Part shown: positions 4,067 to 23,173 of the stretch, piece after piece
Position numbering within the stretch: the stretch's first letter is position 1
How the letters are laid out: every line of letters starts with the position of its first letter
Virus record (IMG/VR): IMGVR_UViG_3300034198_003228
Span: 1-23,909 of that record
DNA from: a virus
DNA length: 23,909 nt
Direction: 5' to 3' (one strand)
Notes under the pieces: model-generated
The model's database searches: none
Seen by the model: the letters and a program-made list of their open reading frames with translations, nothing else
Told to the model about the DNA's origin: nothing
Position numbers and translations under genes: made by a program

Positions 4067-4098
4067 AAAGGCCCCCAGAAATGGGGGCTTTTCATTTG
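4067..4098 (+). terminator. Rho-independent terminator after the major tail protein gene
   Basis: The arm at 4071-4077 (GCCCCCA) pairs with 4082-4088 (TGGGGGC) around a GAAA tetraloop. The stem extends outward through A-T pairs to 4067/4092, and a T-rich tail follows (ttttcattt). The core stem is identical to that of the terminator at 44-65. It would limit read-through from the abundant major tail transcript into the chaperone and tape measure genes. Confidence 0.9.
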
Positions 4099-4124
4099 TA
4101 GTGATAATATCTATATGTTATAAT
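4096..4124 (+). promoter_or_regulatory. Extended -10 promoter for chaperone and tape measure genes
   Basis: TGTTATAAT at 4116-4124 is a perfect extended -10 (TGn-TATAAT). A partial -35 (TTGTAG, 4096-4101) lies 17 nt upstream. The last -10 base is exactly 27 nt before the start at 4151, as at the promoters before 121 and 21656. The ribosome site AGGAGG (4140-4145) lies inside the predicted short leader. Confidence 0.75.
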
Positions 4125-4819: not shown

Positions 4820-7800
4820 ATGGCTGAAGAACAAATAGTAACTAATATAGTTGCTAAATCTGATTTTTCAAATCTTATTACAGATCTTAATAAGGTATCT
4901 TCAGCATTAACTGGCCTACAAGAAAAGCTTCAAACTACTAACAAAACATTAGCAGCACAAGTTGCTGTAATGAATAGATCATTTGCTGAAACAATGAGAA
5001 GCACTGGTCAATTCTCTACCCATTTTGTAAGCTTAACTTCTGATGTTGATAAATTTGGAAATCAGCTAGACAGAGGTCAATTAAAACTTGGAAAATTTTT
5101 CCAAACATATAGCCAGCATGTTAAAACAAATGGCGGACTAATAAGAGATTTAGCAAAACAGCAAGTACAATTACAAAACTCTATACTACAGCCTTTAGGA
5201 AGAAATGCCGAAGGATTAATGCAATATAATGTGCATATCCCAAGAGGTCTTGATTTAGTAAAGAATAAAACTGCTATTGCAAAGCAAGAATTAATGATCA
5301 TGAACAAGGTCATTCAAGAGGGTGCAAATCAATTAATTAACTGGGGTAAAAACACACAGTGGGCTGGTCGTCAGCTAACAGTGGGATTAACAGTTCCTAT
5401 AGCAGCATTTGGAAAAGCATCAGCGGATGCATTTAAAGAGGCGGATCAGCAGCTAGTAAGATTAACAAAGGTTTATGGCGGACTATCAGCAGTATCATCA
5501 GAAGAACTTGCTAAAGTAAGAAAAGATGTAAGCAATACCGCCTCAGAACTTTCAAAATCTTACGGAACATCTTTCTCAGATACAATTGCACTTGCAGCGG
5601 ATATAGCTGCCACTGGACAACAAGGCAACGAACTTCTTGGCTCTATTAGAGAAACAACAAGACTTGCAGTGCTTGGTGAAGTTGACAGACAAGATGCAAT
5701 GAAGGCAACTCTTGCAATACAAACAGCATTTAAACAAAATACAGAAGAATTATCTCAATCAATTAACTTTTTAAACGCAGTAGAAAACCAAACCTCTACA
5801 ACACTAAATGACTTAGTGGAAGCAATTCCAAAAGCGGGACCAATTGTTAAAGGTCTTGGAGGAGACGTAAAGGATCTTGCTCTTTATTTAACAGCAATGA
5901 GAGAAGGCGGAATTAACGCATCAGAAGGTGCAAACGCATTAAAGTCTGGTTTAGCTTCTTTGATTAATCCAACAAAAGTTGCAAAAGCAATGTTTGAAGG
6001 ATTTGGAATTTCATTAACTGATATTGTTGAAAGAAACGCTGGAAATACAACAGCAACAATTTTAGAATTCCAGGCTGCTTTAGAAACTTTAAACCCACTA
6101 CAAAAGCAACAGGCTCTAGAGCAACTATTTGGTAAATTCCAATTTGCCAGAATGAATGCTCTTTTTGAAAATCTTGGAAAGCAAGGAAGCCAGACACTCC
6201 AGGTAATGGATTTAATGAAAGCCAGCTCAGAAGAGCTAACAGACTTAGCTGGTCGAGAATTAACTCAAGTCACAGAATCAGCTTCTGGTAAATATCGCAG
6301 AGCCGTAGAAGGATTAAAAGCAGACCTTGCTGGAATTGGAGAGCAATTTCTTAAAATTAATACTACTTTAATTCAAGTTGTAAATGGAATACTTAACTTT
6401 GTACAATCTCTTCCAAATCCAATTAAGCAAGCACTAGGTTTCCTAGGAATGATAACAGCAGCAGCTGGTCCACTTATCATGTTAACTGGTGTTCTTGGAA
6501 ACTTTTTTGGATATATAATAAAGGGAGCTTCTCACTTTAGATCTCTGTTTAAAGGCGGAGAAGGATGGAAACTTCTAACACCAGAAATTTTGGCTGCACA
6601 AAAAGCTGGAAATTTAGTAGAGCAAACATTTTATAGTGACGCAAAAGCAGCATCAGTATTAAAGCAATCCATAGCAACACTAGCTGCAGAATTTGCAAAT
6701 CTAGAACAGAAAGCAATGTCTGCTGCAATATCCGTGAACCCAGTTGTTTCAAGCGGTGGAACTATAGTTATGGATGCAGCAGGAAGAGGCGTTAATTCAT
6801 CTCACCCACTAATTGGAGCGCAGGGAACAAGAGCAGCGGCTCACCACAATCCAAGATCATTAATGACTCAAGGACAAAGAGATTCACAAACTATACACTC
6901 ATTCACACCAGCACCAATTCCATTAAACCAAAAAATAGGAGCGGTGCCACAAGTATTTATGGATGGAGATCTTCCAAGAATTGAAGGTCTAACAACATCT
7001 AGGGGATTTTCAACTGGTATTGTTGCTGGAGAAGCTGCTAAGTGGCATGCATTAATGGGAACATTATCTATGATGTCCAAGAAAGAAGTTGCAGATTTAA
7101 AGAAAGAAATTGCTAGAACTGGAACATTTAGCGCAGAAATAAATAGTACATTCGGACAGTTGCTTCCAGCTATGACAAAATTGACAAGTAATGCAGCATC
7201 ACAATCTGCTGCAATTGTTGCAGAGTTGCAAGCAGGTAAATTAACAGTAGATGCAGCTCGCACAAAAATTATTGCAATTAACGCAGAGCTAGAAAGAATG
7301 ATGGGGCAAACAACCACACAGGTTGCTGCTAGCCTTGGAAGAACAGCCAACTTAACTCAAGTTCCATTAGTAGATCAACCAATTGTAAGCAGCACAGGAA
7401 AGTCAAATATTAAAGAAATATTTAGACCAAAGAGAGCAGCATCTGGAATTATTGATAAAATAGCAAGAGGTCTTGGCGTAAGAACATGGGGCGGTGGATA
7501 TTCAACAGAAACTACAATGCCTAAAAAGTTTGCAGCTGGTGGAAAAATTTATGGACCAGGAACTGGAACATCTGACTCAATTCCAATTATGGCATCTGCT
7601 GGAGAGTTTATAGTTAACGCAAAATCAACTAAAGAAAACCTACCACTGTTAGCAGCAATTAACGGAGGAATGGGAAATCAAGACGGAAATTACGCAGAAG
7701 GCGGATTCTTGCCAGCAACAATGCTTTGGCAAGGAAGCAAGATGAATGCAATATTGGCACACCCAGATCAAGCTGGACGAAGAAAGTCTCTAAATCTTGA

Positions 7801-15299: not shown

Positions 15300-15313
15300 T
15301 TAAATGGTATAAT
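15285..15313 (+). promoter_or_regulatory. Extended -10 promoter giving a predicted leaderless mRNA
   Basis: TGGTATAAT at 15305-15313 is a perfect extended -10. A poor -35 (TGTAGA, 15285-15290) lies 17 nt upstream. The -10 ends 7 nt before the ATG at 15320, so transcription should begin at or next to the start codon. No ribosome site exists between the previous stop and the ATG, which agrees with leaderless translation. Confidence 0.65.
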
Positions 15314-15319
15314 AAAAAT

Positions 15320-16138
15320 ATGACTACTTCAAAAAGAATAGATGTTAAAGACCTGACAAGAGGAGCAGTAATTGCACTTCCAACAGATCACCCAGACGCC
15401 ATACATTTGCATCCAAATGACTATATAGCTGTTAAAGCTGGTTCAGTAGATTATTCTAGATATTTAAATTCAAACCCGTACGCATTTATTGTTACTCCAA
15501 ATACTCTTGAAAATGTAGATATTATACAGGGCCCTCCAACAGTAATAGACGAAGTGTTAGATATACCATCGTTAGCAGATATTGAAAGTGTTGTGTATGA
15601 GCCATACTACGACTCAATAAGCAAAAGACAAAAGGTTAGGGCTTTAATTAAAATAAGAAACTCTAGCGATAATCCAACAAATATTGCTGGAGTTGATGCA
15701 AGAATATTTAATCCAAGTACAGTTGTAGCAGTTGTCTCTCAGGCCGACCCAGCAACAGAAAAAGTTGTCACACAGTCTGTTCAATTTGTTACTCCAAGTC
15801 CAGGAATACCGCAGGTTACATTTAAAAGAGATGGCACAAGTATGTCTTGGGGCTGGAACAATGTTTCTGGTCTAGGATCCTACTCCTCGGTATCTTATGA
15901 ATGGATTGCTAGTGTTTCAAGTTCATCTTCAGCAGCAGCGCTTAACAGTGGTACAATATCATATACAAGTTCTGCTAATCGTCAAATAGGCACAAATGGA
16001 GTTATGAGAACGTACAGGGTTAGCTCCAGAGACGGTAACTTAACAGCCACATCTTCACCAAGGTGGCTAAGAGTAAGAACAGTAGTAGTTGGAACAAACG
16101 GAACAACTTATAGATCTGGATACTCTACCCCAATATAA
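15320..16138 (+). CDS. Tail-tip/fibre protein with C-terminal domain shared with the 811-residue fibre protein
   Basis: 272 residues. The N-terminal half (1-150) is of unknown fold. It includes TRGAVIALPTDHPD and a beta-rich segment (RQKVRALIKIRN) that could be an Ig-like strand pair. The C-terminal region, about 154-272, is clearly related to the last 110 or so residues of the protein at 19159-21594. Both have WGWNN, a GT-S-YT turn, a YR...DG strand, and a final TNG-TY-SG motif. Such a domain at the end of two tip proteins points to a common surface-binding or trimerisation role. It has its own promoter and no ribosome site. I do not recognise a named family. Confidence 0.75.
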   Translation: MTTSKRIDVKDLTRGAVIALPTDHPDAIHLHPNDYIAVKAGSVDYSRYLNSNPYAFIVTPNTLENVDIIQGPPTVIDEVLDIPSLADIESVVYEPYYDSISKRQKVRALIKIRNSSDNPTNIAGVDARIFNPSTVVAVVSQADPATEKVVTQSVQFVTPSPGIPQVTFKRDGTSMSWGWNNVSGLGSYSSVSYEWIASVSSSSSAAALNSGTISYTSSANRQIGTNGVMRTYRVSSRDGNLTATSSPRWLRVRTVVVGTNGTTYRSGYSTPI

Positions 16139-19158: not shown

Positions 19159-21594
19159 ATGACTGTATGGAATAAAACTGGGAGCTCTACCTGGACAAAA
19201 ATCAATTCTATTTTTAATAAAACTGGATCTTCTTCTTGGACTGAAATTATTAGCGTGTGGGTTAAAACCGCATCTAACGCATGGACAAAAGTTTTTGCCA
19301 GAGTTTCTGTGCCAGCAAACACAGTGCCACCAGCAATTAGCGGAAGCACAAAGCTTTATGGCACACTAAGCGGAACTATTGGAACTTGGACCGCACCCAA
19401 TGGTACTAACTCTTATGCTAGACAATGGCAAAGCGCATCAAATACTAATGGGGTAGAAGGAATATTTGGATCATCACAAACTCCTGGCGAGACCTCATCA
19501 ACATACACAACAACCGACGCAGTAGACGGAAGGTGGGTTAGACTTAGAGTTACCGCAACAAATTTAAGCGGAGACGCAATAGCATTTTCAGATTCAGTTT
19601 TAATAACAAAGTATGCACCAGTAGCCCTAACGATACCAGTAATTAGTGGAGCTCCAGCTGTTAATTCAACATTAACGGCACAAACAACAGTTGGAACATA
19701 TTGGAAAAATACAACAACAAATAATGGAGACACATCGCCAACTACTTTTTCTTACAGGTGGTACTGGGGAGACACGGGGGATAACATCGGGTCAAATTCT
19801 CCTACGTATATCGTACAACCTGCAGACATAAATCATACAATAAGAGTAGACGTAACTGCTAAAAATACTGGTGGAGAAACTATGTCCACTAGTGCTCAAA
19901 CAGCTACAGTAGGTCAACAAATAGGTATATCAAATGTTACATTTACGGATTCAAATGGAAACAATGGATTTAACAATAGAGGCAATTTAGTAACAGCAAC
20001 ATCAACAAGACTATCATGGAAGGTTTCTGGGGTAAACTCCTCAACAACATTTAGAGTAAGATATAGAGTATTAAATAATCAAACTGGAGCTTATTGGAGC
20101 CCAGATAGCGAATCGGCAACAACAGCATCTGCAGCATGGCTTGTGTACGAATCAAATTATAATAATGTTGGAGGAATAAGCAATGTTACAATATCTGGAG
20201 GGGATGCTTTCGTATATGATATCTTTTCAATACCAGAAATATTTAATGGTTCAACATATGACGGTGGAATTTCAAGATGGACATGGGAGTATGAAATAAG
20301 TGCAGTAATAGGAGGAACTAGATATTACTGGTCTCCTGGAGATACAGTTTCCACTAGCTTCTCATTTGACTGGTGGGATATTGACCCAACTTCTTTGGGT
20401 ACTATTACCGCTACACCAACATCTGGAGGCCCAGGAACATCCGTAACGTTTTCGGGAATAATTCAGAGCTATCCTTCAGGATTAAATACTTATCCATATG
20501 CATATAGAGTTGTTTATGGAGACGGAAATAATAGTGGTTGGATTTACCCGTCATATGGAACCAACAAGCCAACGTATAGTTTATCAAATACTTATAACTC
20601 AACTGGAAACTACACCGCCTATGTAGAAACAATACCAAATTATTCATTCAATACAGCATCAGTATCAATTCAAAATGTCTTAACAGCACCATCTATTTAT
20701 AATGTAACTGCTGGTGATTCTAGTGGACAACCAGTGTCAGTTTACTTTACTGGAGGGTCTGGTCCTTTTTATCAAATGTACTGGACTACTGGAGTTGCAC
20801 CAACATTTGCAGTGACACCAGATGCTTCTGGATCATCAAATCCATTAACTGATAATACTGGACCTACTTCCCCTAGCACTGCTTGGTATGCATATGTTAG
20901 ATCCGTTGCTTCAGTTGGTGAAACAAGCGTGGGCCCTTCAGCATTAGCAAGCGCTTGGAGCGCTGGATATCAGTTTACTGTTACTCAAGCTCCAATTATT
21001 CCTACCATATCTGGACTTAACGCAACCTCAATAGGTACTACTAGTGCAACAATTTCTTGGTCTTCTACAAATCAATCGTCATACAGCATAAGCGGAGGCC
21101 CAACATTTTTAACTGGTACCACTTCTAAATCAGTAGTTTTAAGTGGTTTATCTTCAAGTACTTTTTATAATATTACAGTAACGGTAACATCTAGTACTGG
21201 AAACTCGGCTCAGGCTAGCGTTGGGTTTAATACAGCATCTTCTTTTGTTACTCCATCTATATCGTTAAGTACTAACCCACCAGCATTTGCTAGATCAGGA
21301 TCAACATTTAACTGGGGATGGAACAACGCTTTTTGGAGTGGAAGTACTTCTGGAAACCCTAGCTACCCATGGAGAATTCGTTCTGGAAGCTCTAGTGGAA
21401 CCATTATTGCCAGCGGAACTAGATCATACACAACAGGAACTAGAAACGTTGGAGGCACCCAGTATAATTACAGAATAGGAACAACAGATGGAGATACTCC
21501 AACAACTACATCTGGTAGATGGGGAAGTTATCAAGCAACAATATTAGGAACTAATGGTCAGACATATTCTTCAGGATTCTCGGCTAGCGTATAA
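19159..21594 (+). CDS. Large multi-domain tail adhesin (Ig/PKD/Fn3 domains)
   Basis: 811 residues, 3 nt after the previous stop. Residues 1-48 are three 15-residue repeats built on W/F...KT(G/A)S..WT, with WT at 12, 27 and 42. Two Ig-like repeats follow at about 54-152 and 154-252 (GTIGTWTAP; GRWVRLRVTATNLSGD; NHTIRVDVTAKNTGGE). A beta-rich domain of unknown type lies at about 255-405. About 412-508 looks PKD-like (GGPGTSVTFSG; RVVYGDGNNSGW). About 508-695 are Fn3-like units (SATISWSSTN; STFYNITVTVTSS). Residues about 697-811 form the domain shared with the 15320-16138 protein, including WGWNN. This is the most likely host-binding fibre. The absence of a ribosome site suggests coupling to the gene before it. 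Confidence 0.75.
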   Translation: MTVWNKTGSSTWTKINSIFNKTGSSSWTEIISVWVKTASNAWTKVFARVSVPANTVPPAISGSTKLYGTLSGTIGTWTAPNGTNSYARQWQSASNTNGVEGIFGSSQTPGETSSTYTTTDAVDGRWVRLRVTATNLSGDAIAFSDSVLITKYAPVALTIPVISGAPAVNSTLTAQTTVGTYWKNTTTNNGDTSPTTFSYRWYWGDTGDNIGSNSPTYIVQPADINHTIRVDVTAKNTGGETMSTSAQTATVGQQIGISNVTFTDSNGNNGFNNRGNLVTATSTRLSWKVSGVNSSTTFRVRYRVLNNQTGAYWSPDSESATTASAAWLVYESNYNNVGGISNVTISGGDAFVYDIFSIPEIFNGSTYDGGISRWTWEYEISAVIGGTRYYWSPGDTVSTSFSFDWWDIDPTSLGTITATPTSGGPGTSVTFSGIIQSYPSGLNTYPYAYRVVYGDGNNSGWIYPSYGTNKPTYSLSNTYNSTGNYTAYVETIPNYSFNTASVSIQNVLTAPSIYNVTAGDSSGQPVSVYFTGGSGPFYQMYWTTGVAPTFAVTPDASGSSNPLTDNTGPTSPSTAWYAYVRSVASVGETSVGPSALASAWSAGYQFTVTQAPIIPTISGLNATSIGTTSATISWSSTNQSSYSISGGPTFLTGTTSKSVVLSGLSSSTFYNITVTVTSSTGNSAQASVGFNTASSFVTPSISLSTNPPAFARSGSTFNWGWNNAFWSGSTSGNPSYPWRIRSGSSSGTIIASGTRSYTTGTRNVGGTQYNYRIGTTDGDTPTTTSGRWGSYQATILGTNGQTYSSGFSASV

Positions 21595-21601
21595 AATGAC
21601 C

Positions 21602-21629
21602 TTTACAGGTTATTTAAAAATGATATAAT
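21602..21629 (+). promoter_or_regulatory. Strong promoter for the first small helical gene
   Basis: TTTACA (21602-21607) lies 16 nt before TATAAT (21624-21629), which is extended by TGA (21621-21623). The -10 ends exactly 27 nt before the ATG at 21656, as at 89-94 and 4119-4124. It is one of the two best promoters in the window. Confidence 0.8.
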
Positions 21630-21655
21630 AGAACAAATATAAGAAAGGTAAATTA

Positions 21656-21877
21656 ATGACAAGCCCTGATTTAAATAATGAACAAAAAATAGCAATAATT
21701 AATGCCCATATTATGGAATTAAAAGCCGAACAATACAGTCACGAAATTAGAAAAGTAGAACTAGAAACAATATCAAGCACGGATAATGAAATTTATTCAA
21801 ATATTGTTAGAATAATTGGAGACTATAATTTACAAATTTCTACTCTAGAGTCTTTAAAATCTAACTTGCCAGCATGA
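21656..21877 (+). CDS. Small helical protein, paralogue A
   Basis: 73 residues, predicted almost entirely helical, with charged and hydrophobic residues spaced as in a coiled coil. It has no membrane segment and no signal peptide. By eye it aligns without gaps to the next protein from residue 6 on, sharing about 19 of 66 positions. Conserved points are L-xx-E-x-K, II-xx-HI-xx-L, Y-xx-EI near the N-terminus and QI-xx-LE near the C-terminus. The ribosome site AGAAAGG lies in a leader of about 20 nt. The pair is probably a tandem duplication. Function is unknown. Its place after the tail fibres would fit a fibre chaperone or accessory protein, but nothing in the sequence shows that. Confidence 0.75.
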   Translation: MTSPDLNNEQKIAIINAHIMELKAEQYSHEIRKVELETISSTDNEIYSNIVRIIGDYNLQISTLESLKSNLPA

Positions 21878-21893
21878 ATTTAAATGCTATAAT
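21866..21893 (+). promoter_or_regulatory. Promoter for the second small helical gene
   Basis: TTGCCA (21866-21871) lies 16 nt before TATAAT (21888-21893), which is extended by TGC (21885-21887). It overlaps the end of the previous gene. The -10 is only 16 nt before the ATG at 21909, so the leader would be about 9 nt and the ribosome site AAAGGAGG (21897-21904) would lie at or partly upstream of the predicted 5' end. Confidence 0.75.
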
Positions 21894-21908
21894 ACAAAAG
21901 GAGGAAAA

Positions 21909-22136
21909 ATGACTATTAACTTAACAAAAGAAGAAAAGGCTCAGATTATATCTTCGCATATCAAAAATTTAAATTATACAAAATATAATTTAGAAATTGA
22001 TATTATTCAGGAAAATGCTAGAGTATCTCCATCAGCAAGCGCATTAAGCAATTTTAATGCACAGATAGATGAGGCAGAAGATCAGATAGCAGCCCTTGAA
22101 GTAGAACTAACAGCGGTCAACGCCCTAACAGAATAG
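21909..22136 (+). CDS. Small helical protein, paralogue B
   Basis: 75 residues, starting at ATG 21909 after a full AAAGGAGG. It is acidic and helical, with heptad-like spacing at the C-terminus (AQIDEAEDQIAALEVEL). It is homologous to the gene just upstream (see that entry), with ungapped alignment and the same II-xx-HI and Y-xx-EI positions. The C-terminal half has diverged more. It has its own promoter, so the two copies can be expressed at different levels. No membrane or catalytic motif was seen, and the function is unknown. Confidence 0.8.
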   Translation: MTINLTKEEKAQIISSHIKNLNYTKYNLEIDIIQENARVSPSASALSNFNAQIDEAEDQIAALEVELTAVNALTE

Positions 22137-22143
22137 AGATAAA

Positions 22144-22323
22144 TTGGAAAAGGCAGAATTAGTAATAACAGCCCTGCAACAGCGTATAGGAGAACTTGTA
22201 TCTAATTATGAAACTCAGATTGCAGTATTACGGGCAGAAATTACTCAACTTATTAATGAAAAGCAGGAGCATGAAAAATCTATTCAAGAGTACTCAGACT
22301 CACTTAGTAACCTCTCCAACTAA
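22144..22323 (+). CDS. Short coiled-coil protein
   Basis: A 59-residue frame opens with TTG 22144, 7 nt after the previous stop, with a weak AGAGA ribosome site. The product is a single continuous helix with heptad spacing (LVITALQQRIGELV; IAVLRAEITQLINEK) and a Ser/Asn-rich end. It overlaps the next gene by 53 nt if that gene starts at 22271. It is the third small helical protein in a row but shows no clear sequence match to the two before it. Coding is supported by the good helix pattern and by filling an otherwise empty 130-nt gap. It could be an assembly chaperone or scaffold, but this is not shown. Confidence 0.65.
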   Translation: MEKAELVITALQQRIGELVSNYETQIAVLRAEITQLINEKQEHEKSIQEYSDSLSNLSN

Positions 22324-22669
22324 TTTCCCTTCTGGGATTGCGGTTAAGACAGACAAGGCCACTTACTGGATTAAAGACAATAAGAGGTACAAGTTGATTT
22401 CTGATAGGGCTTCTAAGTCTTGGGCATTCACAACAGTGAATGCAACAGAGGAATCTCTATCATTAATTAAGCTAGCTGGAAAGCTGGGGTTTAGGGATGG
22501 CGCCTTGATAAAAAACATAGCAGATGGTAAAATGTATTTAATATCTCAAAATAAAAAGAGGCATATTGTAGACCCAGACTCGTTTAACAAATACGGTTTA
22601 GATAGATCAAAAACCATAGAGGTAAGCGAAGCGGAATCAAATGCTCATGATCTAGGAGAAAGCTTATAA
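22271..22669 (+). CDS. Small surface-associated repeat protein
   Basis: I place the start at ATG 22271 (MKNLFKSTQ, about 132 residues). An open frame reaches back to 22196, but that part overlaps the 59-residue gene and reads poorly. AGGAG lies only one base before this ATG, which is too close, so the start is uncertain. The body has two copies of a motif seen in actinobacterial surface and phage tail proteins: a Gly-hydrophobic turn, a YW/YL-I strand, then K-R-Y/H and F...G. The copies are AVKTDKATYWIKDNKRYKL, and GALIKNIADGKMYLIS followed by KKRHI and DSFNKYG. The C-terminus has a conserved VSEAE block. It may bind the cell wall or decorate the tail; no lytic motif is present. Confidence 0.65.
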   Translation: MKNLFKSTQTHLVTSPTNFPSGIAVKTDKATYWIKDNKRYKLISDRASKSWAFTTVNATEESLSLIKLAGKLGFRDGALIKNIADGKMYLISQNKKRHIVDPDSFNKYGLDRSKTIEVSEAESNAHDLGESL

Positions 22670-23103
22670 TGGCAGAGACATGGAAATCGGTAACTTTTAA
22701 CGAAGGTGCCCCACTAGATCCAAACGATTTAAATCAATTACAAACTAATCTAACAAATGTATTTAATACATCAAAGTCATTACTAAATGCTACAAAAGAC
22801 TCTAGCGGAACAAATAGGGTTGCTATTGTAGACTCAAACACAGAAACAGTCCCATTGAGTGGCAAGGCAAATGTTCCGTCAGCTGCTTATGCAGTTACAT
22901 TTAGCTCTTCATTTAGCCCCGCTGTTGATATATCATTTACTGCCTCTGTTGGAGAAGCTTTAACTTCAAAAATGGGAACGGTTTCAGTAGCAGCAGTAGT
23001 TTCACCAAATACTTTAAGTGGCAAGATTTATGTGACAACAAGTCTTGCATACGCTGGATCTATTAAAATAAACTGGATTGCAGCACAACTAAAAGACATT
23101 TAA
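22669..23103 (+). CDS. Small tail fibre-like protein, possible H-type lectin fold
   Basis: 144 residues, overlapping the previous stop (TAATG), with AGGAGA at 22654-22659. The opening WKSVTFNEGAPLDPNDLNQLQTNL, quoted here as WKSVTFNEG then APLDPNDLNQL, is a common N-terminal attachment segment of small phage fibre proteins. Residues about 70-144 alternate in strands (YAVTFSSSFSPAV; SFTASVGEAL; KINWIAAQLK). The pattern resembles H-type lectin domains, which end in a W-x-A strand. A receptor-binding or fibre-tip role is plausible. The lectin call is by pattern only, so confidence is high for the gene and modest for the function. Confidence 0.7.
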   Translation: MAETWKSVTFNEGAPLDPNDLNQLQTNLTNVFNTSKSLLNATKDSSGTNRVAIVDSNTETVPLSGKANVPSAAYAVTFSSSFSPAVDISFTASVGEALTSKMGTVSVAAVVSPNTLSGKIYVTTSLAYAGSIKINWIAAQLKDI

Positions 23104-23106
23104 TAC

Positions 23107-23134
23107 TTGACGATATTTAACAATATGCTACAAT
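23107..23134 (+). promoter_or_regulatory. Strong promoter directly upstream of a terminator
   Basis: TTGACG (23107-23112) lies 16 nt before TACAAT (23129-23134), extended by TGC (23126-23128); each hexamer matches consensus at five of six positions. Predicted transcription start is near 23141, only 8 nt before the terminator stem begins. The gene at 23191 has no other recognisable promoter. Confidence 0.75.
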
Positions 23135-23148
23135 TCCATGTGGTATGC

Positions 23149-23173
23149 AAAGTCACGAAACCGTGACTTTTTT
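23149..23173 (+). terminator. Rho-independent terminator or attenuator before the phosphoesterase gene
   Basis: A perfect nine-base-pair stem, AAAGTCACG (23149-23157) with CGTGACTTT (23162-23170), encloses the loop AAAC and runs into six T residues (23168-23173). It would end the fibre-gene transcript. Because the promoter at 23107-23134 lies upstream, it would also stop that promoter's RNA after about 33 nt unless transcription reads through. Confidence 0.9.

Follow-up and report, generated by a model that had tools for sequence, protein, structure and literature searches.

Paralogous small genes behind a phage tail fibre: one member of a predicted helical-hairpin family co-varies with the exchangeable fibre tip, the other remains with the genome backbone

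The DNA analysed here (the window, by which we mean the full 23,909-nt, or 23.9-kb, IMG/VR virus record IMGVR_UViG_3300034198_003228; coordinates are window positions) contains a tail module comprising a tape measure gene with a PhageMin_Tail domain, tail protein genes and a fibre gene. At the end of this module the order is fibre, A, B, C, D, E and phosphoesterase, all features from the fibre gene to E and the hairpin behind it lying on the + strand. The tail-fibre gene (19159..21594) encodes an 811-aa protein with an Fn3-like stretch (residues 617-685, a match slightly under the Pfam cut-off) and an exchangeable tip made up of its last ~120 residues; the corresponding 118-aa C-terminal domain (21238..21591) co-travels with gene A. 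Genes A (21656..21877, 73 aa) and B (21909..22136, 75 aa) had been called in an earlier note on this DNA, and both reading frames were found where the note placed them. They are followed by C (22144..22323; a 59-aa coiled coil matching phrog_10610), D (22271..22669; 132 aa, phrog_9616), which overlaps C, and E (22669..23103; 144 aa, weak match to phrog_10025), the last gene of a predicted B-C-D-E operon. Genes C, D and E succeed B with a 7-nt gap or with overlaps, as far as a terminator-like hairpin at 23149..23170.

Gene D matches 134 phage records, 127 from Streptomyces phages and seven from Rhodococcus phages. Four of the Streptomyces records were examined; all belong to Stanwilliamsviridae and present the order fibre (minor tail protein), small coiled coil, phrog_9616 and, further on, phosphoesterase. 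Gene C is the orthologue of this small coiled coil, which in Stanwilliamsviridae comes right after the fibre and overlaps the phrog_9616 gene; conservation of C in this family is not accompanied by A or B, neither of which was found there, and the two constitute additional genes in the window. From these relatives, our guess is that the phage infects an actinobacterium. The sole GTDB match, L114, is a contig in a metagenome-assembled genome labelled as a cyanobacterium; since phage contigs are not binned reliably, we did not use it to infer the host.

The proposal that A and B arose by duplication, made in the earlier note from 19 identities over 66 positions, was upheld. Aligned without gaps in the best register, the two proteins are identical at 20 of 72 positions, and the local alignment score lies 6.2 standard deviations over shuffled sequences, none of 1000 shuffles matching it. 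Profile-profile comparison places the two together rather than in unrelated families (homology probability 96%, E 1.6e-9; 98.9%, E 1.9e-17 with larger sets). AlphaFold2 predicts both proteins to be two-helix hairpins (mean pLDDT 94.0 for A and 96.5 for B), and both are acidic (net charge -5 and -7). Against C, B aligns no better than chance and A only weakly; phrog_10610 is matched by C alone, not by A or B. Searches of Pfam, PHROGs and NCBIfam assigned A and B to no family, these libraries and a PDB sequence search returning coiled-coil noise, with no DNA-binding or toxin family match of any worth in the libraries. Fold searches with the B model yielded generic helical hairpins, none under E 0.001, and tblastn of A and B against 50,697 phage records gave no credible match. 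The family was unreported in a literature search that mostly lay outside subscription journals, and an earlier description is possible. A receptor-blocking lipoprotein resembling T5 Llp was considered and dropped because the A and B sequences have no signal sequence; they lack a hydrophobic N-terminus as well as cysteine.

Relatives of the locus were collected using gene C as anchor, yielding 80 loci among 508 gene-C relatives. In nearly all of the 80, a B-type gene precedes C; in loci where B comes soon after the end of a large fibre gene, the space between them often holds a second, more variable A-type gene. Members share the motif L-T/S-N-x-E-K-I-x-I-I, one lysine of which is invariant in all aligned A and B sequences. 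Copy number varies, with four tandem members in one locus (L019). Some loci (e.g., L044 and L105) have no A-type gene, and A is therefore not required by every fibre. In 15 contigs of 84-130 kb the family is confined to the fibre locus, matches elsewhere being marginal and partial. As side observations, three loci (L074, L093, L106) have a fibre ending in PPYF repeats, followed by a small Cys-rich protein (C-x-SCPEF..CKxCGCFM) replacing the helical A gene; in L017, a 303-aa ORF (5460-6371) is inserted between C and D, and ORFs with a similar end (LGxxRTLxxYexxAgidF) precede B in several other loci.

Across 31 distinct loci, similarity between A proteins follows similarity between fibre tips with a correlation (r) of 0.91, as against 0.42 for tip and B and 0.42 for the tip and the 100 fibre residues adjoining it; the bootstrap interval for the difference between tip-A and the latter control is 0.18 to 0.78. 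Along the fibre, co-variation with A falls from 0.90 to 0.36 once the distance to the fibre end exceeds 120 residues or so. The tip-A correlation persists when the window's tip clade is removed (r = 0.75, 0 of 5000 shuffles) and in a partial Mantel test given C (0.87, 0 of 2000), although these permutation tests overstate significance somewhat, the sequences being related. Because unrelated pairs predominate, rank correlations are weak. We give the permutation tests less weight than the within-fibre control and the matching breakpoints. A distant phage (L009, GC 44%) has DNA in common with the window just at 20694-21879, that is, the fibre end plus A to its stop codon, and in two loci with other tips (L017 and L018) similarity to the window restarts at 21878 and 21881. 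The A gene is found in nine of nine contigs with the window's tip, and A differs in all 13 pairs that have near-identical B and C but differing tips. A fresh scan provided two additional tip types, in both of which tip and A identities drop together: in one, tips are 84-92% and A proteins 82-91% identical, and in the other a tip identity of 87% goes with 89% in A, and 70% with 62%. Three pairs constitute exceptions (L047/L107, L048/L068 and L048/L088), having partly similar tips but dissimilar A. The gene at 15320-16138, which encodes a related tip domain, lacks a neighbouring A gene and is retained in phages that differ in both the main fibre tip and the type of A. The two tip domains concerned (15779-16135 and 21238-21591) are about 40-44% identical across relatives. 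Gene A is both fibre-adjacent and matched to the fibre C-terminal domain; B is not matched to the tip and remains with the genome backbone.

Both genes had been credited with a TGnTATAAT promoter and a -35 element of their own, and such elements are indeed there: TTTACA-16-TATAAT before A (21602..21629) and TTGCCA-16-TATAAT before B (21866..21893), each with the TG extension, the B -35 falling within the last codons of A. These are the top two sigma-70-type sites of a 10-kb scan (ends at 21629 and 21893, 11/12 each), a scan that overall found 35 sites against 36 expected and is not in itself proof of a promoter. At the corresponding sites in relatives, -35 and -10 are conserved and spacers have diverged. 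The idea that single promoters are unusual here is not supported in the form proposed, as extended -10 promoters recur over the late region (86, 4116, 15305, 21621 and 21885). Each is immediately 5′ of a gene, and all five TGnTATAAT sites of the window are on the + strand, where 0.98 would be expected (p 0.003), with none on the - strand. The motif is mostly on one strand in 86-130 kb relatives, too; one of these has 19 of its 23 sites between genes, and the tail-module sites before the counterparts of B and of the genes at 121, 4151 and 15320 recur there. This recurrence at several genes, in the window and in relatives, indicates that the predicted A and B promoters are of a phage-wide type.

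The notion of one promoter per 220-base gene fails for B, whose promoter heads the four-gene B-C-D-E operon. The short B leader with a ribosome-binding site at its predicted 5′ end was confirmed and is conserved: AAAGGAGG (21897..21904) straddles the predicted transcript start. Among 63 distinct sequences upstream of B, 48 contain TGnTATAAT, together with a TTGAC-like -35 and AAAGGAGG, and 46 of these place it 15-18 nt from the ATG; the comparison sets gave 12 of 40 upstream of gene A, none of 76 upstream of gene C and 0.7% of random 60-mers. Of 26 loci, 21 have the B -35 embedded in the 3′ end of A. The B promoter is deeply conserved as sequence and, presumably, active. That of A is mostly restricted to the window's clade, in which CTTTACA and TAAAAATGATATAAT are kept and the spacer is variable.

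Our preferred interpretation, held with modest confidence, is that A and B are paralogous cytoplasmic helpers of fibre assembly, A being matched to, and exchanged with, the tip and B being tip-independent. The A gene and the C-terminal tip would be swapped as a single module. Most likely, A would bind the nascent tip, promoting its folding, trimerisation or protection in the way of intermolecular fibre chaperones, and would not be retained in virions. B would stay in the backbone, its own conserved promoter driving transcription of C, D and E as well; it could be a general helper or combine with A in mixed coiled-coil assemblies. The constancy of B and its promoter fit a general helper, a role for which support is much thinner than for that of A, and other roles within the B-C-D-E operon are possible. 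More speculatively, one family might furnish a two-tier system, with B as a fixed common platform, A proteins as adaptors swapped with the tips, and the B promoter, its -35 embedded in the end of A, as the exchange junction; we put this forward as a tentative suggestion.

In phage T4, gp38 (22 kDa) is the gp37-specific chaperone and gp57A (79 residues) a general fibre chaperone absent from the final particle (PMC3004832). As proposed for A and B, a tip-specific helper adjoining the fibre is combined with a second small, general one. The arrangements differ in that A and B are paralogues in one cassette and gp38 is no small hairpin. The size and predicted helicity of B would suit a small, oligomeric general chaperone such as gp57A; no match to gp57A emerged from library or phage-genome searches. 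Tfa-type proteins, which include Mu Tfa, Pam3 gp25 and the chaperones V22 gp27 and A5 gp9 of Alteromonas phages (PMC10579305), are, like A, encoded directly 3′ of the fibre, act on its C-terminus and are co-shared between distant phages. Pam3 gp25 has 162 aa, with an N-terminal beta-sandwich and a helical trimerisation domain (PMC9608196); this beta-sandwich fibre-binding domain sets it apart from A and B, with their 73-75 aa and all-helical prediction. No Tfa or gp38 family match to A or B was obtained in Pfam, PHROGs or NCBIfam. The failure to find homology to known chaperones counts against the chaperone reading and, together with the simpler predicted fold, makes the likeness one of working rather than of membership.

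Co-variation of A with the tip would be equally expected if A (perhaps also B) were a structural component of the virion, remaining on the particle as a fibre-tip cap or adaptor instead of acting transiently as a chaperone. Strong predicted promoters and the tight late-operon setting among tail genes would suit such a component; the acidic, 73-75 aa predicted hairpins, free of adhesin-like or beta domains, argue weakly against it, and we judge it unlikely. It could also be that A merely hitch-hikes, carried along by recombination with no functional link, as it sits immediately 3′ of the fibre in a region where mosaic breakpoints are frequent. If so, the upstream part of the fibre, at a similar distance, should follow the tip as A does, whereas the correlations are 0.42 and 0.91 and the bootstrap interval excludes zero. 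The breakpoints directly past the A stop codon, and the family motif retained in A despite divergence elsewhere, similarly make simple hitch-hiking quite improbable.

Regulators and anti-host genes are common among small phage genes that have their own promoters and no assigned function, and both roles had been suggested for A and B alongside that of fibre chaperone. The conserved, predicted strong B promoter would agree with a regulatory or anti-host function having no fibre connection. The presence of the family solely behind the fibre, the tracking of tip type by A and the lack of a worthwhile DNA-binding or toxin match render this very improbable. Of the suggested roles, the comparative evidence favours that of a fibre partner, in the case of A.

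Host range in phages is set by fibre tips, many of which need a dedicated folding helper. The findings point to A and B as members of a fibre-helper family from environmental phages that had not been named before. A family of ~75-residue hairpins that tracks the tip could serve to pair tips with helpers in metagenomes, to aid production of soluble fibres from these phages and to flag sites of tip cassette exchange; the co-variation of A and tip amounts to a directly testable pairing rule.

Some features of the late region deserve mention. At 15305-15320, TGGTATAAT, which recurs in L118 at 18929, is so near the ATG at 15320 that the predicted transcript would be leaderless. GC-rich terminator-like hairpins (GGCCCCC..GGGGGC) at 42-94 and 4070-4124 stand immediately 5′ of TGnTATAAT promoters, and these pairs would split the late region into transcription units. 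Between E and the phosphoesterase gene, at 23107-23170, a conserved promoter-like sequence (TTGAC...ATATGyTAmAAT) is followed ~15 nt later by the conserved terminator-like hairpin (AAAGTCACG..CGTGACTTTTTT); the pair could give rise to a very short transcript, form a stem-loop at a 5′ end or act as an operator. In the counterparts from several relatives, the -10 overlaps an inverted repeat, TGCTAC..GTAGCA, which in L018 reads TGTTAC..GTAACA.
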